Assembly (NCBI GenBank): GCA_038501625.1
Contig: JAZAYU010000018.1
Span: 9,547,171 to 9,611,170, forward strand
Reading direction: 5' to 3'
DNA from: Corbicula japonica
Taxonomy: Eukaryota; Mollusca; Bivalvia; Venerida; Cyrenidae
DNA length: 64,000 nucleotides
Below, in pieces: positions 11,097 to 48,026 of the stretch; the stretch's first letter is position 1; each line of letters opens with the position of its first letter. The notes beneath the pieces were generated by a model. It was given only the letters and a program-made list of their open reading frames with translations. It ran no database searches and was not told the DNA's origin. The translations under genes were made by a program, and so were the position numbers.

Positions 11097-14000
11097 TTAC
11101 ACTTGTGTTGAGGTTCTCCGTTCAAATTTTGGATGCTCCAACGTAATGGATTCATTATCAGATTCATTTAATGAATCTTCCGTTTGTTCTAAACACCCAA
11201 TATTTTGCATGAAAGCACAGCCTTCCTTTCGGTCAGTGTCTTCCTCAGTCTTTGAGTTATTCTCTTTCTCTCCATTTGATTTATTACATGCAAGCGTAGG
11301 GGATGGTAGATTGTTAATAGGAGGTGAAACTGGTTTATTCCTGGAATTTGGGATAAAAGATTCGAAATAAGGTGTTTTCAATGTAGGCTCAATCCCGCTT
11401 TTATCGAAATTTTCGTTAATGATATTGTCTATTGGACTTGCTTTCGAAACATCGGCAGCAGTATATTGTATTATTTGTTCTTCAGACTTTTTACAATTAT
11501 CGTCATCTTCGCCACTGATTTGACCATCAACATTTCTTCTTGTATTCGCAATTGTGCCTACCTGATGTTCAGAATTTGGTTTTGAGGCCGCAGCTTGTAT
11601 GGATATTGATGTCGTGAGAGAAAATAGGGGTGCGTTAGTTTGCATAGGAATACATTTTGGCTTATCGTCTGTTTTAGGAGTAAACAACGTTACGGTATCA
11701 AAATTTGTATCGGTCTGAACACTGGTATTTATAAATCTTTTACGAACTCGAAAGGGTGCTATTTTATCATTGCTGTTTACGAAGTGACCAGCGTCGTTTT
11801 CATAAAAGACATTTTCGTAAACAATAGAGTCATGATGGTTAACGTTTTCTGGATTCATATCAGTGCTTACAGTAACGGAATCCCGACGTTTAGTCTCCAG
11901 AGTCTCTTCCGTTTCCTGGAGGCTATCCATCATCTTTGAATCGTGGACGTCGTAGCCGACAGGTAGGTTCAGGATAGTTGATAACCGACGGCCGACGGAA
12001 CGAGCAAACTTTATGTTCCTTTCGGACAGGCGTCGTAACGCATTTGGTATTTTTGGTTCGTCTATTCTCTTGTTCACACTCCGCAGCTGAAAATGAAAAG
12101 TATCATTTGATTATTAATTCATTTTAATGACTCCAAGTTCAGTTAAACCCCGCTATTTAGACTAACTCTGAGACTGGGCATATGTTGTCTTTATTCTCGG
12201 ACAAGCTTTTAGCGGTGGTAAATAGTGTAAACTGTAAAAAGGACATTAAAATAGTGGTCTTATAACGGTAGGGGTATTAAAACTCGAGTGGTGTTATGAT
12301 AAGTGGTATCTGATTTAAGATGATCTAAAATAGTAAACAAAACCTGCAGAAGTAACAATAACAAGCCATAAAATACAAAACAGAAAATAGCAATTGACAA
12401 AATAATTAAAACTAGGATTAGCTGCCGCCTAAGAAGTTGAAATGAGTCAACACTTGCAATACAACCTCCCACGTACTATCAACATAAATAACACAAAACA
12501 TGTTGGCTCTAAAGATTGTCAAAACTAGTAATGGAACCATAGAACAAGACGAAAATATTCGAATAAATATGTTAAAGTTTTCTTTTTGAAGTTTCTGTAC
12601 GACAGCTGCCCAAGATCTAGTTCTCATAATGTTTTGATGTGGACATATTTATTGTTTTATCTCATTTACATTTAATACCAATATTTTTAAATAAATTAAT
12701 AGATAATTTGTTACGTACTTTAGATGTGACGCATGCGCAGCCAATCCAGGATACGGTGAGGATGAAGATGGTTACCGCCATGACAGATGCGATAACAACC
12801 TTCTCGGCACAAAGTTTACCTTCGAACTCAGTCTGCAGGCCGCCTGAAAGAACACAAAAAGATGATAGTACATAGAAACATGAATAATTAAAGATTCTGT
12901 TCCCTTTCACACAGTATGTCTCCGCAGCGGACGGACTTAGCTAATTACAAAAATTGCCTATATCACCACAACACTATTCAGGCTTTCAAAATACTTCCAT
13001 CAAAAGAACATTTTTACTCCAAAAACACTATTATACCGTTCTGTTTGCCATTGATATTGTTGTCAAGGCATTAAGGGGATGAAACCGAAAAATTCTTAAT
13101 GTAAACGTTTATATTAATACGAGTTACTTTTTTATAATAAAGAGATAACCGCTTGATTCATAGAAACTAGGTTATCAGCCAAGATACGCACTCCACGCGA
13201 AATGCGGTGATTTTGCAATAATTTCTTAGACAAACAGTAGTGCCTACCAAACATGCCAGTGTCCTTTGGCACAGATCTGACCTTGAGTTTGGTCGCACAC
13301 GTGACCTTTTCATAGACATCATCACTGTCTTCGTCGTCATCATTTCTTTTCTTACGCCCCCATCCAACGATCTCGCCACAAATTTTCTATACAAAAACAA
13401 TATTTATTGTGTATTTCGCATTTAAACTAACTTGATTATATTGTTCATTATATTATCAATGTATAAGAAAATCAACAAATTAAAAATGAAAGCTATTTCG
13501 ATATATTCATAAAGAACAAAATATGTTGAAAAATAAAAATGAATACATCTTTTCCCCATGGCGTGCTCCGGTCTGTGAAATAACTTCGAGCAGACGACAA
13601 ATCTTATGTTTATGCTCATTGCGGTTAAATGAACATTATTAGGTAAAACATGTAATAAAATCACCATTTAGTAAAGAGAAAGTAACAAATTACTAAATAT
13701 GTTTCCCAAATATACTTACAAATAAGAAAATGAAATGTCAAAACTAATTTTGATGACACAGTTTCCCGTAACGTGCCGAAATATCAAAAACATGTACCTT
13801 AGTACATTCTCCTTTGCAGACCTCTACATTACACATAAAGGAAACATCAACTTCTGTTTGTCCATTGAGATTTGTTGGCTGAAAAGCTTGGAAAGCCGAG
13901 GAGATATCACCTTTAGACTTCTGCTCAAAGTTCGGAAACAGTTCTTCATCTTTTGAACATCTGAAAGCATATAACAATTTCTAGTTTATCTTTGGTTCTG

Positions 14001-25000: not shown

Positions 25001-28000
25001 TTAAATACGTATTGGTATAATAAAAATGAAAACAAGTGAACAAAGAAAATCAGGAATAGCAAATTCAGAAATCACAGCTTCTCCTTACAGCTATAAAGTA
25101 GAGGCAATATTTCTAAATTTTTTGATTAGCAGATTGTATCTGTGCAGTAACAATAATGCTTACTGATGCAGCCAGTGTAAAAGCATTTGTACTTTAAAGC
25201 TCTTCAATTTCAAAATTTATACTATCATAGTTTATACGTCAAACTATAATTTTCCGTAACGGTTTGGAAGCCTTATCAGCATGTGTCAAATAACGAAAGT
25301 GAGAAAGAGGTCAGGGTGAAAACAAATCTATGTTTCTTCTTTAGAAAGATATGCAATTGCCAAATATTTGAAGACTTGTTGTTATTGTTGTTGTTGTTGT
25401 TTTCAATAACAAAAACATTAGGCTCAGTACGTGTGTATGTTCACACTTACGCCAAGACCAAGATTAATGACTGCATGAAAACGGCAAAATAAATTACAGA
25501 AGATGATTCCAATATGTCTATATGTATGTCTTCTATTTTTATAAATAAAATAACGGATTCTATAGTCTGATAAACCGAAAGCGACTAACATAGTTACAGC
25601 AATAATTTGAATTTGAACAAACCCAAAATTTTTTATTATTGATTTTCAATAATTTGTTAATCAACGGTGATTTTATTGTTATTAAATATCATATAATAAA
25701 TTATAGTATATCTAATTGGTTTCTTTTAATTATAGTCGATTTTCCATTCTTTTAATAAGAAGACAATGTGGAAAACAAGTAAATCTCTGAGCTAATGCTC
25801 ATTAGTGATACCCCCGCTTTAAGAAATATGACTTTCAAAATGATAATTGCCTTTTTCATATGTATAAAGGGTGTCAAAGTTTTCAGAGTATTTCCCTATA
25901 TATAAAATACAAATATATAAATGAATAAAAAAGGTAAGTATTCAGTAAACAGGAAGCTGATGAGCAAGGAGCATAAAATAGCTTTACACCATATGGGACT
26001 ATAGGATAAAGCAATATGCAAAATATCAGGCTGCTGCATGTTATAGTTGCTTAGAAAACTGTGACGGAAATTGTGCATGTTTGTCAACTATGTGTAAAAA
26101 TCTAAGAATTCGGTATACGTGAAGTAGATGAGCAAGGAGCATAAAATCGCTTTAAACCATATGGGACTATAGGATAAAGAAAAATGCAAAATACCAGGCT
26201 GCTGCATGTTATAGTTGCTTAGAAAACTGTGACGAAAATTGTGCATGTATGACAACTATGTGCAAAAAACTAAGTATTCGGTAAACAGGAAGTAGATGAG
26301 CAAGGATCATAAAGTCGCTTTACGCCATATGGGACTATAGGATACAGCAATATGCAAAATATCAGGCTGCTGCATGTTATAGTTACTTAGAAAACTGTGA
26401 CGAAAATTGTGCGTGTATGACAACTATGTGCAAAAAACTAAGAATTCGGTAAACGGAAAATAGATGAGCAAGGAGCATAAATTCACTTTACACCATTTGG
26501 ACTACAGGATAAAGCAATATGCAAAATATCAGGCTGCTGCGTGTTATTAACCAGCGAAGCTGGTTTTACTAATCACAATTCTGAAATCGGTATCAAACCA
26601 AAACGAGGCACTGGCAACCGGCGATTTACGCATTTCAGAGTAATCAGAGCAAGCAAAGTAGTCCAAGTTTCCTGTTACGTGTTAAAGTTGGCTCGTGCCA
26701 CGTTAGTATCGCTAAAAGAATACTTGACTGCTTCACTGCGCTGTCCCTAATTCAGAACACAATCGACAACAGAAAACCAATTTTATCTAGGGGTTGTAGC
26801 CGCCAGGGATTCTTTAGCGAGCCACAGATGTGTTACCTTTAGGTAGAGATATAAACGATATTCCCGATGTTAGGATATTACAATAGCTTAATATTAATTC
26901 TGAAATATTTAATATATCTTTTTCTGCTAATTCGAAGCTCAAAATAACAGTGAAAACATTTTCTTTATTTTGTCATTTTAAAACCATTTCAATATTGGAC
27001 GTTTGTTCCGCTGCTAAACTGTTTGTTTCACGTTTTTTTTTATTTTTATCATTAACAATAACGATAATGATAAATTTCCATCTTAGCATATTTTTCTTCA
27101 ATTGTCCACTTTATGAAATAAATGCGCAAATGCTTTCACTTGAAATTTTCAAGACATATTGCGAACATTTGTTTATTATTTGATGATAGGCGTTCATGAT
27201 TGTTGTAAATCACTGAACATGAAGCAATCATCATTGCTGAATATTTTTATATATTGGATTTCCACATATAAGCGTGAACAGTAAACAGTAAACTATTGAG
27301 ATGTGTAAAATTTTACATATTAAAACTAGTATACCGGATATTATTCGTACAGAAATAGGGACATGTAAGATTTACAGATCTATGTATTCGAAACATGCTA
27401 CGAGCAAGCGCGGTACGTGTCCGGCTATCACGTACGTGGCAGGAGACACGTCGACAATAAGGCCATCAGTGGTCCAAGGAACGGACTATGATTTGTTTCA
27501 GGAATAATGGATAATTTACATTTTTTCCAAAGGTGAAGATGTTTACTAGGTTTACGTTTTCGATTAAGCTAGAGATGACTATTATTTTTGTTCGGAGTAC
27601 ATGAAATCATAGGCGCAGTAACACAATGAATATGCAAATGTCAGTGACGTCACAATTTCCCGCGTTTTGAAGAAAGCCAAATAACAGTAAACGTACGTGT
27701 GAATATAGAGGACAAACCATGATGAAGCCTAAAATTAAAAACGACACATCTGTCTGCTGAAACTGATGTTATATGAACGGATTGTAAGCTAATGGACATT
27801 TATCCCATCTCCTTAACAACCAAAACTCAATGATATGTTTACGAATGTCTTAAATCTGGCACCTTTTTCTAATAATATGCTACATGAAAAAAAACATCGA
27901 GTCCGTTATTATATACAACTTAATACGGTGGAAATTTATGGTATAAGCTATAGTAATTCATTTTCCTCTGAAATTGTCTTCAATTTTACATGTGTGTTAT

Positions 28001-31000
28001 CTAGCATTAAATTCCAATGCTTTCGGCAATGTTATGACTCTCGGTTGTTTTATCTTAATATGTAGGATTCTCAATTCTATGATTTCCTTTACATGTTATT
28101 CACAATGAAGGAAACAATTATATACTTCTTATTTCAAATAAATGCATAATCATTCCCATCGATCGGGTCTCACTTTTTATATCATTTTTCGTGTTCATTC
28201 TGTCTTTGGGATGTCAGTACACAGATTTCACTATTATAATTTCTTGCTTAAAACCCTTTACTCAATATATACGCCTTTCATCACATAGGTGACCAGTTCA
28301 GGTCCCAGTCAGCTGGCACAATAGTGCCATCTGATCTGGATCTAAAATTTGTGATTACTGGTCAGAAAAAAAAGATTCTAAAAGCGAACATTTTAAATCC
28401 AAATCAGATCGCAAAGATGTGCCAGCTGATATGGATCTAAACTGTTCGCCCAAGCTATGAAGGTATATCTATGGAGTAAAGGGTTAACAGAAGCCTTCAT
28501 CCAGATAATACATGGAAACCCTTATTTCCACTATCATATAGACAAGATGAAGGTCTTTGCGAGTGAAACAAGTTATTTTGCTTTTTCGTAAATGGATACA
28601 TGTATGAGAATCATGGCACTGGTTATTCTCAAGAAGCAAAATCGCTTCGCTGGTTTTCTGTACTTTCAGTACTTTGATATAATAGTTGCTAAGAAGACTG
28701 CGACGGAAAATAAAGATGCCCTTTGGTTGATCTAATGCATCTATATGGCGACAAAATTTAAAAATATTCGAAAAACAGGAAGTAGATGAGCAAGGAGCAT
28801 AAAATGGCTTAACATCATATGGGACTATATGATAAAGCAATGTTAAATATCTGGCTGCTGCATGTTATAGTTGCTTAGAAAACTGTGACGAAAATTGTGC
28901 ATGTATGACAACTATGTGCAAAAAACTAAGAATTCGGTAAACAGGAAGTAGATGAGCAAGGAGCATAAAATCGCTTTACACCATATGGGACTATAGGATA
29001 AAGCAATATGCAAAATATCAGGCTGCTGCATGTAATAGTTGCTTAGAAAACTGTGACGGAAATTGTGCATGTTTGTCAACTATGTTCAAATATCTAAGTA
29101 TTCGGTAAAAAGAAAATAGATGAGCAAGGAGCATAAAATCGCTTTACACCATATGGGACTACAGATAAAGCAATATGCAAAATAACAGGCTGCTGCGTGT
29201 TATATAATAGTTGCTTAGAAAACTGCGACGGAAAATAAAGATGCCCTTTGGTTGATGTAATGCATCTATATGGTGACAAAATTAAAAAAATATTCGGTAA
29301 ACCGGAAGTAGATGAGCAAGGAGCATAAAATTGCTTTACACCATATGGGACTATAGGATAAAGCAGTATGCAAAATGTCGACGAAAATTTTGTTACGGAC
29401 GGAATCACGGACGGACATGGGTAAAACAGTATACCCCCTATTCTTCAAAGCGGGGGTTTAATAAAAAAAGTCAACATCTAATATTTTTAAAAACAGAGCC
29501 TGTATTCCTCCGATGGTTAAGTTCCTTATCAATTTATGGTCGGAAAACATTCCGAATGCAATTGTTGTGCTCGAATGGATGTTTTTCTTGAGAATTATGC
29601 CGAGCAATAGGCAAAATGTTATAAATGTTATAAATGTAAGGCAGTTACCATTTTGGCAAAAAACTTGTAGAACTGTAAGAAGATTCCAGAATGCCAAACA
29701 TTCAGCCCATGACATAATACTTAAAAGTGAATTTTAAAAAATGGATTTAACAGTTTAAACTTCATTTTTTTTTTCATTTTCTTAACCTAAGTATTCATCC
29801 TCAAGTTGAATGGACATTGTAACCAAATCAGTGAGTTTGACGTCTCCACCCGAAATATCGACGCCATCTTTGTACAGCCTCATATGAGCTTCAGGCTTTA
29901 CTGTTTTGTTTACACCAGTGTCATCGTCTTTGTTGCTGAAACGCAAAAATATTAGCTAAATACATTGTAAATATTATTTGTTTTTGTTTTTTAAATATAT
30001 AAAAACAAATTTTTACTGATGAAATCAGATTTACGGTTTATAAAATACTCAATTTTAAATAAGAAATCATAAACATTTAATGAAAACGTAACGAAAATAA
30101 ATATAAGAATACACAAATGTTTACCCGACGTTGAGTCCGTTGCCGACGAATATGTCACTGAGGTCATACATACATATGAGAGATTCCTGTAGGTCACCCC
30201 CAGTCTGGTAAAGTGGGTTCTTTTGCACGATTATTGTAAAATACGTCTCCTTGAAAAGAATAAGGCAAACAATATACGGTACATGTATTTATTTTGCCCA
30301 GTTAAAATAAAACTTTTTTTCATGCTCAACTCAGTAAGCATGAATAATACAATGTATATGGCGTCGTATCCTTTCATTTTGGAAAATAAAACATTTTATC
30401 TGAAAATACAACAACTTATACTAGTAACAACTGTAGAACAGAATTTATTTTTTATGAAGTATGCTGTTCTAGACATCTTAAGTTTGAGCGCAACATTAAG
30501 TTGAACATATTTTTATAATAATTGGCTTTGGTTACCGAAGTGTTTTGCATTAAGATATTTGAATTTATTGTTATTGATACATGTATTAATATATTATTAT
30601 TAAACATCTGTAATTATACTTCAGTCTAGAATTATATTTGACTGCGTTTATATCGCATCAGGTCTCGCTGGAAATTGGTATGCTTACCGCTTTCTCGATA
30701 CCACAGGCGTCAAACTCAAACTCATGTGTGGTAGGGCTTGATTTCGTGTCTTGTTTGCAAGCTGACCCGTAGCCCCTGATATATATGATACCGTTTTCAG
30801 CTCCACCGGTTAAGGTCACAACAATACGACTTGGCGAACAAACATCCCAGCTCACTTTTAATAAAATTTCAAAAAAGTAAAGAGAATTACGCCCACGATC
30901 GCGCTGCTGGAGCATTTAGGAAAGGTAAGTAATATACAATGTAGCACTCATTGTAGCAATTTCCATTCTCATAGATAATCAACGCAAAAAGGCTCTATTT

Positions 31001-33517: not shown

Positions 33518-36500
33518 ATGGCTATTTGGAACACTTCGGCATGGATGAGAAACTTGATATTAGTTATCTTTTTAGGATGTGCTTTGTTTTTGTTTGGTAA
33601 GAATTTGTACGTTTTGAAAAAAAATGCTAGAATGATAAATATACATGTAGTTAATAAATTTTATACACGATTTAAAGTTTGTACATTGTATTCAGACACT
33701 TCAAAGTCATGAATATAATTGCAAAAAATCTTCACAAATTTACTGTGAATTTCAGTTCAAGTCAAGTTCTTAAATAGATGAAAAATGAAACTTTGTCGGT
33801 ACACGACACACATCAAAAGATTGCATACTCGGTTTGATTGAGCTTTTTCAAATGCACATAATCAGGGCTAACCCGTCGTTGAGCGCAGTTCAATATTTAC
33901 ACATTGTCAAATAAAATATCGTGATCAACATCCTTCTAAGGGGTACACGACAACAGCACTGATTGAGATTGTAATGATTTTAAGATTGTTACTGGTTTAA
34001 GTTTTAAAGATATATCTACTAAAGTTAAGTTATGGGTATCGTTTCTAGCTGTATTCTGTTATAATGCTTTTTATTAACAAACCTCTTTTATTACATAGAA
34101 AAAACAACAAGCATTCGGTTAACTTTCACAAGTAAACGGTGTTAGATCATGCGTTTTTCTTATTCTTAAATTCATTTTGTTTGTGTTTCATTTCGAGGAT
34201 CGGTTGTTTTTGAAAGTTATTTTCAATTATTTATGATTTTTTACAACTATGCGATGACTTGTATTTCAGTTGAGAGTTGGTCCTGCCTGCCTCCTATCGG
34301 GCGTGTATACAGCAGATCAAACCCTCCAGTAGCTATTGAATTTGATGGCAGCAGAATCATCAGCAGTATTAGTGGCTACCGAATCTACGATCTTTTTAGC
34401 AGATTTTTAATACAGGATAATAATGGACTTATTCTTGCAAAGATAAAGAACGGTTATTTAAATCAAAGATTCGAGGATGAATACAGTGTTAATGGAGTTG
34501 ATGTTAAATATATTGCTGTCGACAAAGTGCAAATGACAATTAACACACAAGGCTACTTAAAAGCGGGAACATACCGTTTATCTTCATGGAATAGTAGTGG
34601 TGATCTAATTATATGTAACTGCTTGTTTTTACTGGGTAAATATTAATAGACTTTACGTATTTTAACTACAGGCATTTTTTCGTTATTACGCTATACTGTT
34701 TGTCTTTACGCCACTGAATTAAGCCTTTGATAAAAGTTTTGTCAACTTAGGAACATAACTTGTTAATCCTGGTTTAAAAAATCTATTTACTCTAACTAAC
34801 TAGATAAACGAAAAAGGATTGGATCAAAATACTTGTAATTTGATTTCATGCTTAATTCAAGTTACACTTAGAACTTTTGTGGACAGTAATTCCTAGCATT
34901 TTACATGAAATTTCTCTTATAACTGATTAAAATCTTCAGAAAACTATACACATGTCTATGCAAGTCCAGCTCTTTAGAGAGTGTCTGATACTTAAACATA
35001 ATCAAACCTATATAAATTATTCTAAAACTGCTATAAGTAATATGAACAATTTCAAAGGAGACCATTTACTCACCTCATTTCTCATTACTTCCCATCTCCA
35101 AGTTTTGGATATTGGATCTTAAAGTCTGCTTTTAAGCTTTAATTTTGATTTCCATCCACACAGATATTACACTTGTTCTAAAGACTTCCATGGCGTCAGA
35201 CCACTATTCCATCCACAAAGATATGGCACTTGCTCTAATGACTTCCATGGCGTCAGACCACTATTCCATCCACACAGATATGGCACTTGCTCTAATGACT
35301 TCCATGGCGTCAGACCACTATACCATCCACACAGATATGGCACTTGCTCTAATGACTTCCATGGCGTCAGACCACTATTCCATCCACACAGATATGGCAC
35401 TTGCTCTAATGACTTCCATGGCGTCAGACCACTATTCCATCCACACAAATATGGCACTTGCTCTAATGACTTCCATGGCGTCAGACCACTATTCCATCCA
35501 CACAGATATGGCACTTGCTCTAATGACTTCCATGGCGTCAGACCACTATTCCATCCACACAGATATGGCACTTGCTCTAATGACTTCCATGGCGTCAGAC
35601 CACTATTCCATCCACGATTAAATTTTTATCCCTGGGGATTGGAAACCGCATTTTCGGAAAGGGTCTGGGAAGTTCTTCAAAAAGATAAATTTGATTTCGG
35701 CGTTACCCTTCAACATGTACACACGAAATATTGAAAAAGAACATATTGTTCAGAAATTTACGTCGACGTTAAGGGTATTTTAATCCATGTGCGTTTGGAA
35801 TAAATGTGTTGGCGGGCTTACTCTTCCTAATCACACTGCATTTAGAACTTGAACAAGATGTGTAGTTTTAATCGTTTAAATACCTTAGCAAGAATGTAGC
35901 TAAAAGCCTCCACGATCACCTGAAATACAAGACAACAATCTACATAAAAATATGTCAATATTTTTCCAGGTGTACCAACCAAGCCAACCATTTCAATGGG
36001 CAACAATCCTGCTGTAGGAGAGAGCGTTACTCTGACCTGTGCCAGTAACTCTACAACAACACCCAGCAACCACACCCTTAATCTTGTGTATAACTGGATA
36101 GTTGACGGTGTGAATAATCCTACTGACTCAAGATTTGCCTATGATTTATTCGGGAAAACTCTTACGTTCTTCAACATTGCCAAAATCGATTCTTTGAAGC
36201 AATTTACATGCACTGCCACCGAAAACGTAACAGATGGCTACACATCTGAGATTAGTGATTCGAAGACAATAGTTGTCTTGTGTAAGTAACAAATAAATAA
36301 CACGTTTATTTAGTAACCATTCGATATATTTAAAAGTGTATCGTGTTAATCACAATACATGTACACGTTTTGTTATTTTTATATCTCATTTCGATATTAT
36401 TTATTGTACTGTATTGAGAGACCATTTGTGGTGAATGAATTATACATATGACCGTTCTAAGGCGGTAACCTCGCTGGTTTTTTTAGCATAATACAGCGTG

Positions 36501-39500
36501 GTTCCTGCAAATTGATATAACGAGACAGACCAGTAAATCCGTATCCAACAGTATGGTTTCTGATTCCTCATTTCCGATGTCATCGAGTGTTAAATGCGTC
36601 TTCATAACAGTTACTACATAATACTACAAATGTACATTGTATTTTGTGATTGTGATTTTCCTTTACATTTCGGTAGATACCAGAACTCCGAAAAAAAAAA
36701 TTTCTGTCGCTGTTCTACAAACATTACTGTAACGATATTCGTACGCCATTCATATTCATAAATTAACTATTTCGTTACTATTGCTAATACTTCTATTATG
36801 TAAACAACATTGTTGAGTGAAATTTTGTTGGTTAGTGTAATTAAATTTGTTTTGAGCGAGAAAGGCAAATAATAAAAGGAATAATATACTTAAAGAAACT
36901 AGAAACGCAATTTCGTTAAACATAACTTATGTTTCGTGATTAACGAAATTGCCTTTTTTAATTTCTTTTACTATATTATATGTGCTTGAAGAAATAAGAA
37001 ACGCAACTTCTTTAAACATGAAATATATTTCTTGTTTAAAGAAGTTTAGTTTCTAATTTTTTTTAGTATGTAAGAAATTGTAATTCATCACAAACATTTA
37101 TCTACTTACCGACTAACATAAGAGGAAGAAATAAACATTTTGAGGTTTTCAATTTAATCTTTAGATGGGCCTGAGAAAATGAGATTTAATTCCGGTGATG
37201 AAAATATCGAGAGAGACGAAAATACATTGCTGCCAGAAGTCCTTTGTGAAGCCGACTGTTATCCTCCTTGTAGCTTCAAATGGACAAAGCTGGAAAGTGG
37301 GTCTGTAGTGGCGAGTACAGCCAGTCTCCAACTTAGGTGGGTCACACGTAGGGCTGCTGGAACATACAGATGTACAGCATCAACATCTTCGTCGGAATTA
37401 GCAACAAAGGATTTTATTCTAAAAGTACTCTGTAAGTATCTACATAGCATGTCCTGCTTTTATGTTATTAAATGTGACATCAGATTTACATCAAATGTTT
37501 AAATGTTCGATATTTATGCGCAGGTCTTTGCACATTTGGCGCACCTTTTAATAAGTATAAGTTAATTAAGTATATCTGAAATGTCGATACATTTTTCTAT
37601 TTGAATATTAGATTACCGCTGTACCATTTATTGCAAATACTTTAAAAATTTCTCCTATGATATTGTTTCATTAATGTTTAATTTTATTTGTCCCCTATTT
37701 CAAATGTCATTTAATATTATTCAGATGCTCCAAGTGTATCTATTACGACTTATCCTTCCCACGCAACTCTCAATCAAGATTTGAAGATTGTATGTGAAGC
37801 CAATGACGGTGTACCAGCAGAATACCGTTACACAGGCATCGTGCATACATACAAAGGTCAACTAATTCAGATCACCTATCCTGCAATTCATGGTAGGCCG
37901 TTAAACAGTTCGCTCCATATACTGTCTGCACAATTACGTGACACAGGAACGTACACATGTTACGCCAACAATGGCGTGAACACCTCTGGAACACTTGATC
38001 AGATAGTGTCTGTAGAAGTAAACATGAAAGGTACGGTTACTTGAGTTACACATTCGTGAAACCCCATTTATCAATTTAATTCATTTGACATTTATATTGT
38101 TTTACACATTCACATTAATAAAACATATTAGATTTTATGAAACTCTATGGTGTTAAAAGATCGAAAATGAATTAATATAAAATGTTTATTATCCAACTGA
38201 AAATCTTTCTAATGCACATCACCATTTAATACATAAATTGATAATAATCAAAATCAGTCGATGCGTATGGTTTAACCAACGTCGTTTCTTGTTTTGAATC
38301 AGAACCATGACATAGCTAAACCACTATAAGTGTTTCTAAACTAAAAAATGAAAATTGTACAACTAGTCATAAACATTTTCAGCTATACCATTGTTACTGC
38401 TTGAAGAAAATATCCTTTTCGGGACAGAAAACGAACCTCTGACGGTCAACATACCATTTTACAGTTATCTAACGGAGAACAATGTTACAATCAAAAGATT
38501 TGATGGACTAGAGATCACTGGATCTAGCAAATACGATTTGATGTACAGCAGATCTTTGGTAGAAAATATGTTCTATCATACAATGGTGGCTTTGAATTGC
38601 ACGGTGGTACGTTTTATAATAAACAATTTAACAAAGGAGGACTTAACAAAGTACGTGGTTTTGGTTGCAAATGAAGTCGGATATAACTCAGTCGAAATTT
38701 CCATCATGCAGAAAGGTAAGTTAAACTTAAAAGTCTTCCCGTACATATAGTCAGTACTGTTATCAGTAAAATAACCCGTTAGCGATGTCATGCAGTGATT
38801 GTTACGTATATCAGGGCTATCCGATCAACCTTTTTTGGGGTTGTCCCCGTTAGCTCAGTTGGTTGCGTCGCAGGAATTGTAGGGCTAGGCGCAGTCGCCG
38901 TGACGGTGCGGGTTCGCTCCCAGCTAGAGGCACTATCATTTTCAACTTAGTATATATAGTTGCTTAACAATACAAATATGTACTTTTTATGATCACAATA
39001 CAATATTTTTCTTAATTAAGCAACGGTGCTTTATTTGCAAACATACAGATGTCATAATAAAACTCTAAACAATAAGTTTACAAATTAAGTGTTTTATAAA
39101 ATGCATGGTGAATATTTGAACAATGCTGAAAATATCATGGTTAAAAGGGTACATGAATAACTGCATGTACCATAAGTTTTGATGGCAATGTTTTAATAAC
39201 AAAGTAAAAGGTCTTAATTTTGAGGTAGAAAATAGTCACTGTATAAAAATAACAAAAGGCGCCTTTTGGTCTTATTAGCGAGGTGGTCTTAATGAGAGTT
39301 TTTACGGTTTCTTATTTCAGGTCCTCCGTTGTCACCTGTAAACTTTAAAGCGTCTACATTTTCTTCTGGTTTTGTCCTGTTGTGGGACAGTAGATCTAAT
39401 GGTGGAGATGAGCAGTCGTTTCTGATACAGGCATCAACAGATAGTACAGGTCAATGGAGTAATATAACACTCGTCCAAGAGTCAGACAAAGAACACCTCA

Positions 39501-42500
39501 TAAGTGAAGGGCATTACATTACCAATGTATCAGGGCTACCTCATGGCATATACCTATGTCGAATTATTGCTTTCAATTCCTTTGGAAATGCTTCCCCTGT
39601 CATTCTGCCAACACAAATCGAAATCAATATAATGCAAGGTACGCACTTATGTACAATAAATTGTTGATGAAATGGCATTTATTACTTGTTATAAGATATC
39701 GAAGAATCTGACAAGTCTTATGATTTCATTCTTCTGTATACTTCTTTTTTAATGTTTAGTTACCAGTGGCATAAGGTCTTTTGACACATTATTGCTCAAT
39801 TTCAGTGACCGACCTTCATTTAACACCTGTTTTGTTTTCAATTTTACTGAAAAGGAAACGTTGTTTTGCACATTTTAAGCAAATATTAATTGATAATGTT
39901 GTCTTATGAGCTGATAACTTTCTCAGATTATCTTAAAGTTTTTAATAAACTTACATAAATCTGAATCAGAATGTTATGTTATTACAGAACAGCATGAGGT
40001 ATATAGTGTCCTTACCATGTGGCTTGTTCAAGATAACAGGGTGATCATAATATGGACTGTTCTTGGCCTGATTATTATCGGTTTGGTCATTTGTATAACG
40101 ATACAATGTGTCAGTGTCAGACGGCCAAATATTACAAAAGGTAAGCTACAGTGTACTCCATAGCATAAGAATATATTAGAGAACAGTCTTACAAATAAGA
40201 CATCAGATTGGTCTCTGGTCTAAAGCTCGAGCAATACGTTGCTTTACAATGTATGCTAGTTTCGTTGATTCCGTATGCTATGAAGACATTTTTAAAAATG
40301 TGTTGTCTTGAAATTAATTATCGATCGCCTTATTATGATGGTATTATTGTATTCCCAAATGAATTCATTACCATTTTATTACAGCGCAGGCACGAACAAT
40401 TGAACTGTATTTAATAAAATGGGAAATAATTATAAAATTTGACACTTTAAAACAGATTTAATAAAGGAAAAGTGCTAATTGAAAGTTTTTATGGCTTTTT
40501 AAGTATGTTCTTTTTAAAACAAATATTTTAGGACAATTATCCTTTCGCATTTCTTTTACTTGCATGAAATGTGTTTTAAGCTAAATTTTAGAATACACTT
40601 GCGTCATTTTTCCAATTCAATTATATATAATAATTACTTTTTTAACACAAGTCATACTAGACTGTGTATGGGAATTAGTGACCGAAAGAGTGTTAAGTCA
40701 ATGTTTATGTCACAAAAAATGTAAACAAAAATAAAGACCTTTATATGAGTGTATTCATAACAAAAAAACCTATCTGGTAGGAAAATATTGAATATTGAAA
40801 ACAATGCTTCATATTTTAACAAAGAATATAAACAACCTAAATATTAAACATACCATATAAATTGATAACATTTTAATTGTATCGCAACGATTTTCAATTT
40901 AGGTGAGGTAATGGCTACAAATCCATCGGGTTCTGGGTAAGACATTTTCTCTTTTCATCTCTATCAAGTGTTAAAATTTTCGAAATACGTGTTTTATTAT
41001 GCGAGCCAGTCGATGCTGCTCATAAAATGAATGGTAATACGAACTTAAACGATGAAAAAGCATAAATACTAGACAATATAATGAACGGAATGGTTGATCC
41101 ATTCAATTCATTTAAGATAAAGTTATGAACATTCATTGTACAAAAGAATTATATTCTTATTGACAAAAGTCTTGTCCGGTCTAAAATATTTAACTCTACC
41201 GCCAGTACTTGCTAAAATTCTTTTTTTTTCATTGAATGCATATAAATGCCTCCTTTCCATCGATACAAAATTTAAAGTGTGCTATAAAAACTTCACGCGT
41301 TTGAAATACAATTACGAAAACCATACAGGACAAGACTTTTGTCCACGAATATATATTCGAGCAGACATTGAACTAAAATTGTTTAAGGCAAAACTAAAGC
41401 CACAAATTCCTGTTTGTTTACAGCTCGTTAGTTCTGACACAACATATTAAGTATCACGTTAATTGTCTAATCCACGTCTGACTAAAATAGCAAGCAGTCT
41501 TTAATAAAAAAAAACAATACAATTTTATTCAGTATACGCTCATAGCTTTCTGTTCATGAATTGAGGATCTCCCTAAAACCAGTAGTGTTGTTAAATGTAA
41601 AAACAAAAATATACGAAGAGGTGTTCATATTTACATAACAATCATTACCTTTACTCTGGTAACAAATTCAAAACCTCACTATTATAATTCTTTAATGCCC
41701 ATATCTTAAACAGTTTAAAATGTCCGATATGTAAATCAACAAATTTCCAAATCGGTCTCAATTAATACAAGGAGTTAATATATACTAAGTCGACCTTAAG
41801 AAAAAGTTTTAAATTTTATTAAAGTGTTTCCTTTGTCGCGCTTTTTTACTATATCTTTGTGGGGTGTGGGGGTGTTGAGTTGATTGCATTATATATTCTA
41901 TATATATAATCGGTTGCTTTTATAAGTTTTGTTTTCGAAAATAATAAAGTCCCGTTTAATGAATTAATGAATATTTACGACTGCGCCATTGAGTCAGTAC
42001 ACCTGATGAAATCATGGACAGGCCAACTTAGAAACTGCAATATTGTCATTTTGACGTCTCCGTTTAATTTCGAAAAATATTGTCCGGATCGTTCATTCAC
42101 CCACTCAGTGTTCTATATATAATTTCAAATATTCTGCACCTCTTATTTGTTAACACTACACAACTCAAAAGTTTACTCATAACGTGTCTTTGGAATAAGA
42201 TTGATAGGTCAAAGATTATGTAATAAAATAGGACAAGCACTAAGCTATGTTTTTAGAGAAGTTTAAACAATCACGAAACCCGCTCTGTTTACTAAGCGTT
42301 GTCTTAAAACTTTGCTTAGTACACACTAACTAAAACACATACAATTATTCAAGTTTTTTATTATTTATTAATTAGAATACAGCTACCGCTTCAAGTCAAT
42401 GCTGCCCTCCAGCAGGACTCTGCTCAACAAGTTGACGCTTCCAGTTATGTATTGCCTATTGCTGTCAGTCAATACAGAACATTAGATGACAGACTGAATG

Positions 42501-42541
42501 ACGACACCAGAGTATATGAAGTTATCAGCACAGATACGTGA
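33518..42541 (+). CDS. Gene D: five-Ig plus FN3 receptor with ITAM/ITIM-like tail, 777 aa
   Basis: Ten coding exons: 33518-33596, 34270-34635, 35970-36281, 37165-37431, 37725-38030, 38383-38715, 39321-39638, 39988-40140, 40903-40936 and 42376-42541 (2334 nt, in frame). Exon 1 is a signal peptide. Exon 2 is a divergent Ig-like domain. Exons 3, 4 and 5 are Ig domains with the Cys-Trp-Tyr-x-Cys pattern (for example AAGTYRCTA and DTGTYTCYA). Exon 6 is Ig-like without the canonical cysteine pair. Exon 7 is a fibronectin type III domain. Exon 8 holds the TM helix (about 679-699). Every extracellular domain is one phase 1-1 exon, the mark of shuffled modules. The tail contains SQYRTL (754-759, an ITIM hexamer) and YEVI (770-773), spaced as YxxL-x10-YxxI. 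It is a single-pass surface receptor, probably adhesive or immune; orthology is not assignable. Confidence 0.88.
33828..33930 (+). repeat. Dispersed repeat R2, copy in intron 1 of gene D
   Basis: CTCGGTTTGATTGAGC and GTTCAATATTTACAC are shared with 43958-44060 at similar spacing. Confidence 0.55.
35150..35616. repeat. 57-bp minisatellite, 8.2 copies, in intron 2 of gene D
   Basis: The unit contains ATATGGCACTTGCTCTAATG and TTCCATGGCGTCAGACC, and copies are nearly identical. Because 57 is divisible by three and the unit lacks stops, open frames of 134-158 codons appear on both strands; neither has coding context and the array lies within an intron. Confidence 0.92.
36885..37070. mobile_element. 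Two tandem P1 palindromes in intron 3 of gene D
   Basis: Two hairpins, about 36885-36983 and 36984-37070, each have arms like AAGAAATAAGAAACGCAA inverted around a central AAACATRAAAT. They match the element at 7575-7666. Confidence 0.65.
38752..38943 (+). mobile_element. tRNA-like 192-bp repeat (SINE-like), copy 2, in intron 6 of gene D
   Basis: A-box-like TAGCTCAGTTGG is at 38851-38862 and a B box GGTTCGCTCC at 38911-38920. The unit begins CAGTACTGTTATCAG and ends CACTATCATTTT, the same limits as copy 1. The pol III-type promoter lies in the right half of the unit rather than at its left end. Confidence 0.78.
40240..40620 (+). repeat. Dispersed repeat family R1, copy 4, in intron 8 of gene D
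   Basis: TGTATGCTAGTTTC at the left and the CTTGAAATTAATTAT and AAATTTGACACTTTAAAA blocks match copies 1 and 2. Divergence is high and the boundaries are approximate. Confidence 0.45.
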
Positions 42542-42930: not shown

Positions 42931-44199
42931 CAGTATTTAAAGTATACTAAAAGAATTGTTTGGTCCTTTTTAATATTTTTAATATTTTGCTTGTAAGGGC
43001 CTGTAAGTTTAAAAGTAATCGTTATCGTTTCAACTAAGATTTTATTAAATATAAAGCCGTGGTTTTTTTTTTTTGAATTTAAAGAAAATTAAAGGAAAAT
43101 CACTTATTTAATATAAAATGCATACAGTTTGTCTATTACTTCCGGTTATGAACCAGAGCCGGTTAACTTTTCTATTTCCTATCCCATGATAGAAATATTT
43201 CAGTAGAACGAGTGAAAATGCTTATTTATTCGCAATTAATAACACATGAACTGAACATTGACGAACTCAAAGCTTTGATACATTGTTTACTTCTGGCCAA
43301 GCGCCTAATCGATAAAGATTATTGCAGACGCTCGTGTGCAAAATTTGGCAACGCGTGGCAGTTAAGCGTTAGTGTGGATTCAATAGTTGGAATTCTAAAA
43401 GGATAAAATTGGACATATAGCTGATGAAAAGAGACAATCAAAGCAAGAGGATGTGGCTGGTTAGCCTACTGGTCATTTCCCAGGGTCATTAGCATCCTAA
43501 TTGAGAAATATCCAAGACAAAGATGGGAAAAATCTTGTAAATTTAAATGACTTTTGGTTGTATACGGGATATTTTCGCGCGGACATAATTTCGCGCAGCT
43601 GTATTATTCTCATAAGATTAAATATTCAAAGGTTTAATTTCGCCGGGGTTTTATTCGCGCAATTTCTAAAATGGTTCCTTCCTTCCTTCGTTCCCGCCTT
43701 TTTTCCACACTAAGAATCGCTTCAGAAATTTCGGGTCTTGTTGGGAGGTTGAACTAATGCATCTCCATATCGCTTTATCGCTAGGCCGACGAGCCTTCAC
43801 GATTCATAATTATACAATTTTGTCAGACGTATCTACTGTTTCGAGACAAAAAAAATCATTTAAAGATAAATATATGAAAAAAAAGGTGAAATATGCATAT
43901 CAGGAAAAGTGAACTTTGAAAGCAACCAAACACGATAAATATGAAAATATTGCAGGCTCGGTTTGATTGAGCCTGTTCATGGACAGTAATGGAAATGCAT
44001 GTTACTGTCCACGCCGCCTAGCCCCTGGTTGAAGCGCAACTCAATATTTACACCAATAAACTGTACAATTTCGATCCATCCCAAACGATGGTAAGCATAT
44101 GGTGGTGAACATATAACCTTCAATTTTCAGATTAATACCATTCAGTGTTCAGTGACGTATTGTCCCCACATAAAAGAATGGGTTTGCCCTAATCGAGAA
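42931..44199. other. Intergenic between gene D and the LINE
   Basis: No gene is recognised. The stretch 43570-43680 has several TTTCGCG motifs typical of degraded mobile DNA, and 43958-44060 is repeat R2. Confidence 0.5.
43958..44060 (+). repeat. Dispersed repeat R2, copy just upstream of the LINE
   Basis: CTCGGTTTGATTGAGCC and CTCAATATTTACACC match the copy at 33828-33930. It may be old DNA into which the LINE inserted. Confidence 0.55.
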
Positions 44200-47100
44200 A
44201 ACAATGGGCGGAACTAAACAAAATATTCTATAATTTTGATAGGGAATCTGAGAATCGGTTGGTGGTGTATGACCTAGAGAGGGTTTTTTGTTTACATTCC
44301 AAAAGTTATAAGATTTTGTTAAAACAAGGACGTCTTCATCACACACATAGAAACAGGATGATTATTAATATATTGAGGAACCTTTTTATCGCTATAGTTT
44401 TTACCAGTCGTGTCTTACATCAACAAGGAAATGAATATTTTAAAGTGGATGTATATCCGGATAATTTTATTTCGGACAGTGTATCCGTGTTGCCTTTTAC
44501 CTACGGACATCTCACATATTTTAATACTTTTATGAATGTGAATTTTACAGTCTGTGAAAAGAAGAAATTCTCATGGCCTTCCACTCGGCGAAATAACTTA
44601 CTAGTGCCATTTTGTCTTATGTTATGTGGTGATATTCATCCATGCCCTGGACCTTCCACTGAGGAGCCTACATTTAACATGTCCAGTGACAATGTCTTCA
44701 AAGTCTTCCAGAAACGTGGTTTGCATTTTTTACACATCAATACGAGGAGTTTGTTGCCTAAATTGCATGAGTTAGAAATTATAGCTGATAGATCTAAAGC
44801 TGCATGTATATGTGTAACAGAAACATGGCTTGATAACACATTTCCTGATTCCGAGGTGTCCATCAAGAATTACTGTATTCTGCGCAAAGACCGTAACAGA
44901 CAAGGCGGAGGAGTGTGCATTTATATTAGGAAAGACTTGTCTTTTAACCATAGAACTGACCTGGACCATGATGGCATAGAAGCTTTGTGGATTGAACTTT
45001 TTTTACCCAAGACCAAACCAATTTTAATTGGAGTGACCTACAGACCTCCTACACAGCAGGACTTTTATTCTATATTAGATTTTGTGTTTTCTTCTAGCAA
45101 TGACTTTTTACAATATGAAACTATTTTACTAGGTGACATGAACACTGATGTTTTATGTTCCAAATCTTACCCTCTTTTACAGTGTCTTAATTCATTTATA
45201 AACATGTTTAATCTTACACAAGTGATAAAAGAGCCAACTAGAATATGTTCAACCAGCTCTACAGCTATAGACCTTATCCTTGTTTCAGATAGTGATAAAA
45301 TATCTCAGTCTGGTGTTATTCACACAACTTTTAGTGATCATAGTATGGTTTATTGTACTAGAAAACTAACAAAATGTTTTTTTGGTTCTCACAATACTGT
45401 TACTTTAAGGTCTGCTAAGAATTACAACAAAGAAAATTTTCAAGCCAGGCTCCTATGTATTGATTGGACTCCAGTTACTCTAAGTGATAATGTAAACAAT
45501 GCATGGGTTTGTTTTAAGCAATTATTTTTATCAGTTTTAGACAGTATTGCACCTGTAAAGCAAATAAGAATCAAGCAAAGGTCCCAACCTTGGATGGATT
45601 CTGACATTCTCCAGGCTATAGCAGAAAGAGATAAAGCATTTCATAAATATAAACATGATAAATGTCAGGACAATTTTGAAACTTTTAAGTCTTTAAGAAA
45701 CCATGTACAGCAGTTAGTGCATAAAGCCAAGAAAGAATTTTTTACCAATAGCATTGAGCAAAATAAAACTGACTCTAAAGCTTTATGGAAAACTCTCAAA
45801 AGCCTTGGTTTACCTTCTAAAAAAGCATCTACAGACTCAAGTTCAAACATTTGTTTAAAGATAAATGACAATATTTGTTTTGAAAAGAAACTGATTGCTG
45901 AGACTTTTAACAGTTTTTATACTACTGTAGCCTGTAAATTAGTAGAAAAGCTTCCTAAATGTATACAAAAGTTTGGTTGTAATTTTGTGAGCAGTTTTTA
46001 CTCAAGTAAAGGTGTTATTCCTAACAGTTTTTCATTTAATTTGGTAAGTGAAACCAAAGTATTAAAATATTTACAGTCTCTAGGTTTAAACAAAGCGACT
46101 GGACTAGATGGCATTTCCTCTCGTTTCCTAAAGGATGGGTCACCTATTATTGTTGGTCCTATAACACACATTATCAATCTTTCACTTATTCAAGGTATTG
46201 TTCCAGATGAACTCAAGTCTGCTAGAGTTGTCCCCCTTTTTAAAAAGAATGATAAATTATCAGTTGGTAACTACAGACCAGTCTCAATTTTAAACATAGT
46301 GTCTAAAGTTCTTGAAAAGGTGGTCTATGATCAGGTTGAATCTTATTTCAAGGATAAAGATCTGTTGTATAAATTTCAATCTGGCTTTAGAGGTGGATTT
46401 TCCACTGACACCTGTCTTATTTACCTGACAGATTTTATTAGAAAAGAAACTGACCAAGGTAACTATGTAGGTATGCTGCTACTGGATTTACAGAAGGCCT
46501 TTGATACAGTGGATCACTCAATCCTTATCATGAAGCTGTCAGCCTCTGGCCTGGGTAAGAACATTGTTAGGTGGTTCAGCTCATATCTTTCAGATAGACA
46601 GCAACTCGTTGATATATCTGGTACTTTTTCATCTACAGCCACTGTAACCTGTGGTGTGCCACAAGGCTCTATTCTTGGGCCACTGCTTTTTCTGATTTAC
46701 GTTAATGATATGTCAGCAGTGATAAAAAACAAATTGCTACTTTACGCTGATGATTCAGCTATTTTGGTGTCTCACAAATGTTTGTCCAGAGTGGAACAAG
46801 CTCTGACTGAAGATTTGCACTTAGTTAGTCAGTGGCTTATTGACAATAAGTTATCATTACATCTCGGTAAAACCGAGTCCATTGTTTTCGGGTCAAAGCA
46901 CAAACTTAAGTCTAAGTCCGTTCTTGACATTAATTGTAACGGCACCTCCATTCAACCTACAAAGTCAGTTAAATATCTTGGGGTTACTCTAGATCAGCAT
47001 TTATCATTTGCCGTTATGGCCGATGCTGTTCTTAAGAAAGCAAATTCACGTCTTAAATTCCTTTACCGCAAAAAAGAGTTTCTTACAGAATTTACGAAAA

Positions 47101-48026
47101 AGCTGCTTATTATGTCTTTGGTACAATGTCACTTTGATTATGCCTGCTCAGTATGGTATAATGGTTTATCCCAAAATTTTAAAAACAAGCTACAAACCAC
47201 TCAGAATAAAATGATAAGATTTGTACTTAATCTGGATGCCCGAGCCAGCATTCGTAAAGAACATTTTAATCATCTTTCTTGGTTACCTGTTGAGAAAAGG
47301 GTTCATCATTTGATGTTATGTCATGTTTTTAAGGTTAGGAACAATTTGGCTCCTAGTTACATGGGTGAATTTTTTGTATCTCAAGACTCTGTTCATAGCC
47401 ACAATACCAGGTTCAGCAATAAAGGTGGATATGGTCTCCCTAAGGTAAAAGGCTCCGGCTCAAAATCATTTTGTTTTTTAGCGTCCAAACTTTGGAACAG
47501 TTTACCCTCATTTTTAACAACAATAAAGCATCTTAACAATTTTAAAGTCTCCATTAAAGATTTCTTAATGAAAAACTTATAATAATTATTTTAACTTTTT
47601 AGCACGCATATTTATGAACTTATTTTTTGTTTTACTTATCTATTTCGGCGTAGGCGAATTCTGCTGTGACAGAAAGTTTTTAAATTTACAAAGTAGATTA
47701 TCGTTTTACTTTATATTGTTAACAATACCCACTGTGATAGTTTGATAATAACAATGTGATACTTATTTATTATTATTTAACTTCTTACTAGTTTGCCTCT
47801 CTGGGTCATGCAACCAATACAAAGGACCGCAATGGAAATAAGTGCTTGCACTTTATTGCGTTATCCTTGGTATTTGAAGCATTCCATGGTTATCTCTGCT
47901 TCTAAACATTTTATATGATTGTTTTTTGTTGGTAATATTTATTTTTATTGTTCACATGTGTAAAAAATTATGTAAACCATTGTATGTTTCCTATGCCGAA
48001 ATAAATCTATCTATCTATCTATCTAT
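44200..48026 (+). mobile_element. Non-LTR retrotransposon with (ATCT)n tail
   Basis: The element comprises the EN-RT frame, a roughly 430-bp 3' UTR and a short tail of about five CTAT units ending at 48026, the kind of microsatellite tail seen in CR1/L2-type LINEs. The 5' end cannot be fixed; a start somewhere in 44060-44250 is likely. I found no clear target duplication. It lies between gene D and the truncated end of psi-C, on the strand opposite psi-C. Confidence 0.85.
44259..47582 (+). CDS. LINE ORF: AP endonuclease plus reverse transcriptase, up to 1107 aa
   Basis: One uninterrupted frame encodes a non-LTR retrotransposon polyprotein. Residues 155-360 carry the apurinic endonuclease motifs (HINTRSLLPK, TETWL, GDMNTDV, SDH). 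Residues from about 620 carry the reverse transcriptase: YRPVSIL, DLQKAFDTVDH (about 743-753), GVPQGSILGP (about 799) and the catalytic YADD (829-832), followed by thumb and C-terminal sequence. The order and the absence of an RNase H domain place it in the CR1/L2/Jockey-like group (inference). The true start is uncertain; the ATG at residue 34 is a plausible alternative, since the first 33 residues look non-coding. Residues 119-132 resemble a 2A-type segment (GDIHPCPGP). The intact frame suggests a recent insertion. Confidence 0.92.
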   Translation: MVVYDLERVFCLHSKSYKILLKQGRLHHTHRNRMIINILRNLFIAIVFTSRVLHQQGNEYFKVDVYPDNFISDSVSVLPFTYGHLTYFNTFMNVNFTVCEKKKFSWPSTRRNNLLVPFCLMLCGDIHPCPGPSTEEPTFNMSSDNVFKVFQKRGLHFLHINTRSLLPKLHELEIIADRSKAACICVTETWLDNTFPDSEVSIKNYCILRKDRNRQGGGVCIYIRKDLSFNHRTDLDHDGIEALWIELFLPKTKPILIGVTYRPPTQQDFYSILDFVFSSSNDFLQYETILLGDMNTDVLCSKSYPLLQCLNSFINMFNLTQVIKEPTRICSTSSTAIDLILVSDSDKISQSGVIHTTFSDHSMVYCTRKLTKCFFGSHNTVTLRSAKNYNKENFQARLLCIDWTPVTLSDNVNNAWVCFKQLFLSVLDSIAPVKQIRIKQRSQPWMDSDILQAIAERDKAFHKYKHDKCQDNFETFKSLRNHVQQLVHKAKKEFFTNSIEQNKTDSKALWKTLKSLGLPSKKASTDSSSNICLKINDNICFEKKLIAETFNSFYTTVACKLVEKLPKCIQKFGCNFVSSFYSSKGVIPNSFSFNLVSETKVLKYLQSLGLNKATGLDGISSRFLKDGSPIIVGPITHIINLSLIQGIVPDELKSARVVPLFKKNDKLSVGNYRPVSILNIVSKVLEKVVYDQVESYFKDKDLLYKFQSGFRGGFSTDTCLIYLTDFIRKETDQGNYVGMLLLDLQKAFDTVDHSILIMKLSASGLGKNIVRWFSSYLSDRQQLVDISGTFSSTATVTCGVPQGSILGPLLFLIYVNDMSAVIKNKLLLYADDSAILVSHKCLSRVEQALTEDLHLVSQWLIDNKLSLHLGKTESIVFGSKHKLKSKSVLDINCNGTSIQPTKSVKYLGVTLDQHLSFAVMADAVLKKANSRLKFLYRKKEFLTEFTKKLLIMSLVQCHFDYACSVWYNGLSQNFKNKLQTTQNKMIRFVLNLDARASIRKEHFNHLSWLPVEKRVHHLMLCHVFKVRNNLAPSYMGEFFVSQDSVHSHNTRFSNKGGYGLPKVKGSGSKSFCFLASKLWNSLPSFLTTIKHLNNFKVSIKDFLMKNL

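Follow-up and report, generated by a model that had tools for sequence, protein, structure and literature searches.

A conserved tyrosine pair in the tails of a predicted immunoglobulin-superfamily receptor family of Corbicula japonica and related clams

Draper/MEGF10-type and Fc-gamma-RIIA-type receptors carry on one chain two YxxL/I units separated by a long spacer, a relaxed form of the immunoreceptor tyrosine-based activation motif (ITAM). Gene D of the bivalve Corbicula japonica, the subject of this report, encodes a predicted receptor with the same tail arrangement beneath a different ectodomain, built of immunoglobulin (Ig) domains. It lies in a stretch of 64,000 nucleotides, referred to throughout as the window (GenBank assembly GCA_038501625.1, contig JAZAYU010000018.1, positions 9,547,171 to 9,611,170 of the forward strand). 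Among bivalve proteins, the oyster CgIgIT, CgIgIT2 and 'BCR-like' (B-cell-receptor-like) receptors resemble it, as far as their published descriptions go, in having several Ig domains, one transmembrane segment and a tyrosine-based tail, to which gene D adds a fibronectin type III (FN3) domain. A review (PMC11999971) gives CgIgIT2 of Crassostrea gigas five Ig domains, a transmembrane segment and an ITAM, yet the same protein is an inhibitory receptor in the title of a paper among its references, which also include titles on inhibitory IgIT signalling and on BCR-like signalling in oyster. The sialoadhesin-like protein P0025 of Saccostrea echinata has, like gene D, Ig repeats and a stretch resembling FN3 ahead of the transmembrane segment, and several YxxV/I units in the tail; unlike that of gene D, its scanned pair reads YSVV-x12-YAEV, lacks the LDD core and is accompanied by further tyrosines.

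Like gene D, Hydractinia Alr and Botryllus FcoR are invertebrate receptors with ITAM, hemITAM or immunoreceptor tyrosine-based inhibition motifs (ITIMs): PMC12065747 describes an ITIM and a hemITAM in FcoR and ITAM/ITIM motifs in the Hydractinia candidates. The initial annotation of this DNA had likened gene D to the Alr proteins, a comparison that found no support past general domain style. No Alr- or FcoR-like protein appeared among the 13 and 50 matches to gene D described below, in word-based searches that need shared words and did not compare Alr sequences directly; the one cnidarian match noticed among them, the VEGF-receptor-like protein P0041 of a coral, is of a generic Ig kind. A 2018 survey (PMC5978004) reported Syk/Zap70 homologues only in invertebrates that possess CARD-CC/Bcl10, molluscs included, and argued from this gene distribution for ancient ITAM-bearing upstream receptors; the parts of it covered here name no such receptor.

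The tyrosine pair and its near-fixed spacing

Gene D comprises ten exons on the plus strand (33518–42541) and encodes 777 amino acids, in the order signal peptide, five Ig-like modules, FN3 domain, single transmembrane helix and cytoplasmic tail, the layout of a type I receptor of the Ig superfamily (IgSF; Table 1). The signal peptide and transmembrane helix were assigned from hydrophobicity. All nine introns are bounded by GT...AG, and all are in phase 1 save the last, which is in phase 2. Exon 10 begins at 42376 after ...aattag, is entered in phase 2 and closes with TGA at 42539–42541; it encodes (G)IQLPLQVNAALQQDSAQQVDASSYVLPIAVSQYRTLDDRLNDDTRVYEVISTDT. The motifs previously pointed out in this exon, namely SSYVLP, SQYRTL and a YRTL separated by ten residues from a YEVI, are all present in its translation. 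The predicted junction is supported, since in each of four paralogous last exons an AG acceptor likewise precedes the first whole codon by one base, which gives phase 2.

These paralogues come from a search of the 1.07-Gb assembly, in which the window lies on contig C18 and match counts are lower bounds. With the exon for the second Ig domain (Ig2) as query, four further loci were found at E < 1e-24, one on C208, two on C43 (C43a and C43b) and one on C992. Paralogues were counted as loci with an Ig2 exon match, and seven weak matches to the Ig3 exon were left out of the tail reading. In all four, an open last exon lying downstream on the sense strand holds the pair with a spacer of exactly 10 residues and has the same acceptor phase as gene D, making five of five loci with gene D itself, and stretches matching the fifth Ig module (Ig5) and the FN3 domain of gene D were found in each. 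The two C43 paralogues form a small cluster, at 831306 (minus strand) and 858874 (plus strand), separated by about 27 kb. Queried with its own tail, gene D alone was recovered from the genome. The C43b tail recovered C43b, C992 and C208 at E < 0.01 and three more matches at E 3.3; it missed gene D and C43a, so that such a search is not sensitive.

Relatives outside the genome were sought in two ways. The whole gene D protein matched 13 proteins at E ≤ 10, of which Ruditapes philippinarum and Mercenaria mercenaria supplied six; a profile, scored against the 7995 candidates with most shared words, matched 50 at E ≤ 1e-5, 15 of them from the same two clams. The closest relatives belong to Ruditapes and Mercenaria, as expected of the bivalve origin first proposed for this DNA. 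Sixteen clam proteins were examined, and six with neither transmembrane segment nor tail (P0001, P0002, P0004, P0005, P0014 and P0015) did not enter the tail count. Seven of the remaining ten end in the pair (P0006, P0016, P0017, P0018, P0021, P0022 and P0029). These 'CEACAM/hemicentin/contactin-like' proteins also have, by eye, the N-terminal D1-Ig2 domain pair of gene D, except for P0017 and P0029, which are N-terminally incomplete; the P0016 model, unlike gene D, has no transmembrane segment. Retention of the pair in relatives had been set beforehand as the check on the motif, and it was borne out in four of four paralogues and seven of ten clam proteins with a transmembrane segment or tail.

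When the gene D tail was aligned locally to each of the seven clam tails, with 5,000 shuffles apiece, the observed score was reached by a single shuffle for P0006 and for P0016, by 14 for P0022, 18 for P0029 and 24 for P0017. BLAST aligns P0006 with gene D over residues 13–340 only, with no match past residue 340. Since the tails of the two nevertheless align, the tail pattern has persisted, whilst the part of the ectodomain next to the membrane either is different or has diverged too far to be recognised. A search with the tail region of P0006 recovered P0006 alone among 25 candidates. One fish IgSF protein, the titin-like P0028 of Neoarius graeffei, contains YAALNPAGRTSDDVYHTL at 493–510 and a copy with one residue different at 1102–1119, also with a 10-residue spacer.

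Twelve tails from three species, five from C. japonica and seven from the clams, were aligned and their features counted by eye. The first unit is YxxL and the second Y(E/D)x(I/L) in all 12, so that both YxxL/I units of an ITAM are there, with leucine and then isoleucine or leucine at +3. The spacer is 10 residues in nine tails and 11 in three (Ruditapes P0017, P0018 and P0021); none has the six to eight of the canonical motif. The pair is thus a relaxed ITAM, YxxL/I-x6-12-YxxL/I in a receptor cytoplasmic tail, reminiscent of the activating switch of vertebrate immune receptors, and the ITAM-like spacing noted earlier for gene D, YxxL-10-YxxI, holds good in this relaxed form. Glutamine precedes the first tyrosine in 11 of the 12 tails and aspartate occupies spacer position 2 in 11, the exception for both being P0022; the signature QYxxL(D/E/N)D-x8/9-Y(E/D)x(I/L), near the C-terminus, fits 11. 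Amino-acid identity averages 57% in the core, as against 28% in the linker. Across the 19 codons of the core, the proportion of nonsynonymous differences (pN) was below that of synonymous differences (pS) in all ten pairs of C. japonica genes (pS 0.36–1.15, pN 0.09–0.39, uncorrected; for C992 against C43b, pS 0.36 and pN 0.09).

Other features of the tail vary. A YxN upstream of the pair, a Grb2-type site, is present in nine tails, among them five of the seven clam proteins, and is missing from gene D, P0018 and P0022. Gene D has LQVNAAL at the position where C43a has LYGNLAY, and has therefore probably lost both tyrosines there. The third tyrosine to which attention had been drawn, SSYVLP, does exist in gene D and was found in none of the other 11 tails. 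The residue at position -2 of the first tyrosine is S, E, G, E and E in the five C. japonica genes and S, P, P, T, T, T and K in the clam tails, and the hexamer [SIVL]xYxx[LIV] occurs at the first tyrosine in two tails (gene D and P0006) and at the second in two (P0006 and P0029). SQYRTL in gene D does match a canonical ITIM, as had been proposed, but the hexamer is not conserved, and we set aside the ITIM as the main reading of the tail.

The odds of chance point the same way. Shuffling the 75-residue gene D tail 200,000 times produced the strict pair, Y..[LI].{6,12}Y..[LI], in 0.8% of cases (2.5% when valine was admitted at +3) and the ITIM hexamer, [SIVL].Y..[LIV], in 22%, which makes an ITIM match on its own unremarkable. 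The pair weighs more than the ITIM match, and it is the conservation of the pair that counts. The loosest pattern, Y..[LIVM].{6,12}Y..[LIVM] within 15 codons of a stop, proves nothing without homology, because it matches 32 times on the sense strands of the four paralogue stretches, each of 20 kb, and 28 of these matches fall in unrelated open frames.

Candidate readers of the tail and competing explanations

A scan of the C. japonica genome for SH2 domains gave 50 exon matches. On contig C63, an N-terminal SH2 exon has SYK as its best PDB match (E 4.5e-14), and further along the strand there is a C-terminal SH2 exon matched by ZAP-70 and SYK. Of two kinase exons on the same contig, one was judged by eye, and the other, holding the catalytic loop, has an entry labelled EGFR as its first match and SYK in the rows below it. 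The SH2 and kinase exons stand in order on one strand, which makes a Syk-type kinase gene on C63 likely. SHP-2 entries are the best PDB match of a single SH2 exon on C31, and a joined pair of SH2 exons on C319 is matched by SHP-2 and Grb2, best by SHP-2; two SH2 exons on C21 (L033 and L039) are candidates for SHP-2-like domains. SH2 fragments of such size do not settle identity, and Syk and a phosphatase may be equally available as readers of the tail. A further SH2 exon on C70 (L037) gave ambiguous matches (PLC-gamma, ZAP-70 and others) and was not used.

On balance, and with confidence a little above even, we regard gene D as one of at least five loci of a small germline family of Syk-coupled, relaxed-ITAM type I IgSF receptors, in which the last exon is a phosphotyrosine module. 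In the mechanism that we infer, a ligand would cluster the ectodomain of gene D and, on clustering, a Src-family kinase would phosphorylate both tyrosines of the tail; the tandem SH2 domains of the organism's own Syk-type kinase could then bind the pair in its doubly phosphorylated form and set off an activating cascade, such as phagocytosis or an NF-kB-type response, in haemocytes. In most relatives YxN would add a Grb2-type site upstream, and gene D, which lacks it, would signal via the pair alone. Conservation resides in the pair and its spacing rather than in the ITIM hexamer, which favours a Syk-like reader with tandem SH2 domains over a phosphatase that reads a single site.

Several observations weigh against this interpretation. 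Canonical ITAM spacers, at six to eight residues, are shorter than the 10–11 seen here, and the pair of P0022 is without QY and LDD. The tails of P0018 and P0021 align with that of gene D no better than chance (1026 and 1100 of 5,000 shuffles), these two being grouped with the family through the shared tail pattern. Three of the ten clam relatives with a transmembrane segment or tail end differently (P0003, P0019 and P0020), either because their models are incomplete or wrong or because they carry genuine alternative tails. Two of them, P0003 and P0020, bear the label partial, and to the eye both track a paired sibling (P0017 and P0018, respectively) before diverging abruptly, as model error or an alternative exon would produce. 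The codon statistics of the core are uncorrected proportions over 19 codons, with few sites. Finally, the match to the Ig5 stretch in C43b (C43:862244–862577) is split into two pieces that lie in different frames, which may mean a broken copy or an assembly error.

It is unlikely, in our estimate, that gene D is instead an inhibitory receptor whose phosphorylated tail recruits a SHP-2-type phosphatase in the manner of an ITIM. SQYRTL fits [SIVL]xYxx[LIV], as do both sites of P0006, but the -2 residue that defines the ITIM is not conserved (two of 12 tails at site 1 and two of 12 at site 2), and 10–11 residues is close for tandem ITIMs. The precedent of oyster CgIgIT2, cited by title as an inhibitory receptor in the reference list of PMC11999971, speaks for such a role. 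So do the SH2 exons on C31 and C319, best matched by SHP-2 entries, whose fragment size leaves their identity unsettled.

We give as little credence to the proposal that gene D is an adhesion or scavenger receptor outside immunity, with tyrosines that serve as YxxPhi endocytosis signals for AP-2 and as general SH2 (Grb2) docking sites. Both YRTL and YEVI can be read as YxxPhi, YxN occurs in nine of 12 tails, and many of the distant ectodomain matches are adhesion molecules (contactin, NCAM and CEACAM). Sorting signals, however, need neither a held spacer nor acidic neighbours, and the spacing is 10 or 11 in every one of the 12 tails.

Slightly less probable again is an optional tail, which would be compatible with the other readings: skipping of exon 9 would swap the frame and yield signalling and decoy forms of gene D. 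Exon 9 sets the frame of the tail, linking the phase 1 end of exon 8 to an exon 10 that must be entered in phase 2; without exon 9, the frame of exon 10 meets a stop after about 35 codons, removing the tyrosine tail. A candidate micro-exon of 34 nucleotides with the same phases is present in C992 and one of 25 nucleotides in C208, and three clam models have other C-termini, yet the micro-exon scan gave no candidate for C43b and listed nothing for C43a. It is hardly credible that the pair arose as a chance match in a tail free of constraint, for although gene D has three tyrosines in 75 residues and the loose pattern hits many unrelated frames, exon, phase and position are alike in five C. japonica loci, and the same pattern and spacing recur in 12 tails from three species.

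Domain assignments and other elements of the window

The description of the ectodomain as five Ig modules and an FN3 domain, given in the initial annotation, is reasonable overall, with Pfam Ig domains in exons 3–5 and a weaker basis, in fold comparison for exons 2 and 6 and in BLAST for the FN3 domain, elsewhere. Pfam found three Ig stretches in the gene D protein, the best at residues 347–424 (exon 5), and we place the three in exons 3–5. The model of exon 2 (D1) is of low confidence, with a predicted local distance difference test (pLDDT) score of 65; among the matches listed, the best Foldseek E was 0.012, template-modelling scores were 0.40–0.55, and nearly all PDB matches were antibody, T-cell-receptor, CD8- or CD96-type Ig domains. 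A V-type Ig is thus a low-confidence assignment, by fold alone. Exon 6 gave a model of pLDDT 76 from a two-row alignment, with 23 Foldseek matches at E ≤ 0.001 (best 9e-5, to DIP-alpha), and a weak match to Pfam I-set below the cut-off (E 0.036); these modest fold matches suggest a cysteine-free Ig. For exon 7, the Pfam scan of gene D made no fn3 call. BLAST aligned it with a Pfam-called fn3 of a Haliotis protein at E 9e-5 in a two-sequence comparison, and with the FN3-like stretch of S. echinata P0025 at E 4e-9.

Table 1. Exons of gene D, its conserved core and the tails of the four paralogues
Feature	Position	Strand	Content
Exon 1	33518..33596	+	Start codon and signal peptide MAIWNTSAWMRNLILVIFLGCALFLF, phase 1 end; leader aligns with that of P0006
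Exon 2	34270..34635	+	N-terminal V-type Ig-like domain (low confidence), family-specific D1; Pfam silent
Exon 3	35970..36281	+	Ig domain 2; holds the conserved stretch STTTPSNHxL
Exon 4	37165..37431	+	Ig domain 3
Exon 5	37725..38030	+	Ig domain 4
Exon 6	38383..38715	+	Ig-like domain 5, without the usual disulphide
Exon 7	39321..39638	+	FN3 domain; Pfam silent
Exon 8	39988..40140	+	Juxtamembrane stretch, transmembrane helix (hydropathy 3.16), first basic residues
Exon 9	40903..40936	+	34-nucleotide micro-exon, in at phase 1, out at phase 2
Exon 10	42376..42541	+	Cytoplasmic tail and stop; tyrosine pair YRTL-x10-YEVI
Conserved core	42473..42526	+	YRTLDDRLNDDTRVYEVI, inside exon 10
Paralogue tail C208			EQYSELDDRLRDDSKAYDVI
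Paralogue tail C43a			GQYSTLEDQLRDDHKLYDVI
Paralogue tail C992			EQYTRLNDRPKSDIDAYDAI
Paralogue tail C43b			EQYTSLDDRLKSDIDAYEAI

Two introns of gene D hold repeats or repeat-like sequence. Intron 2 contains a 57-bp tandem repeat (35150–35615; 8.2 copies, 97% matches) that opens long frames on both strands, and the intron sequence at 38840–38935 on the plus strand resembles, to the eye, the head of a tRNA-derived short interspersed nuclear element (gttagctcagttggttg...gggttcgctcccagctag), where neither ARAGORN nor Rfam calls anything. Rfam and tRNA (ARAGORN) scans of the window as a whole gave no matches. Downstream of gene D, an open frame of 1129 codons (44193–47582, plus strand) with endonuclease and reverse transcriptase domains represents a retrotransposon of the type without long terminal repeats. 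Elsewhere, minisatellite arrays of 31/85 bp in both orientations (1769–4338) open long spurious frames, and apparently one 168-bp unit makes up two separate tandem arrays (25928–26547 and 28766–29234). On the minus strand, 11097–12940 holds an open frame of 337 codons and a separate frame with a hydrophobic stretch, with no Pfam match above the cut-off; these are possibly parts of another gene.

Meaning for the receptor family

Taken on the sequences, the conserved signalling-type tail of this bivalve IgSF receptor family is real. A wider proposal, which we put forward as speculative and rather unlikely, is that these genes encode upstream receptors of the invertebrate Syk-CARD-CC/Bcl10/paracaspase pathway in bivalves, a clam-wide family in which one tail module, YxN plus an ITAM with a spacer of 10 or 11, entered through a frame-setting micro-exon, would have been kept while the membrane-proximal ectodomain changed. 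In the open-licence literature, taken by title and the opening of the abstract, none of the matches listed concerns the clam family or a tail with YxN and a 10/11-spaced pair. With its conserved pair and defined spacer, this clam-type family would provide further named candidates for ITAM receptors upstream of Syk and the CARD-Bcl10-MALT1 (CBM) complex, after the oyster proposals described in PMC11999971. Within that family, gene D would be a natural variant without the YxN site.

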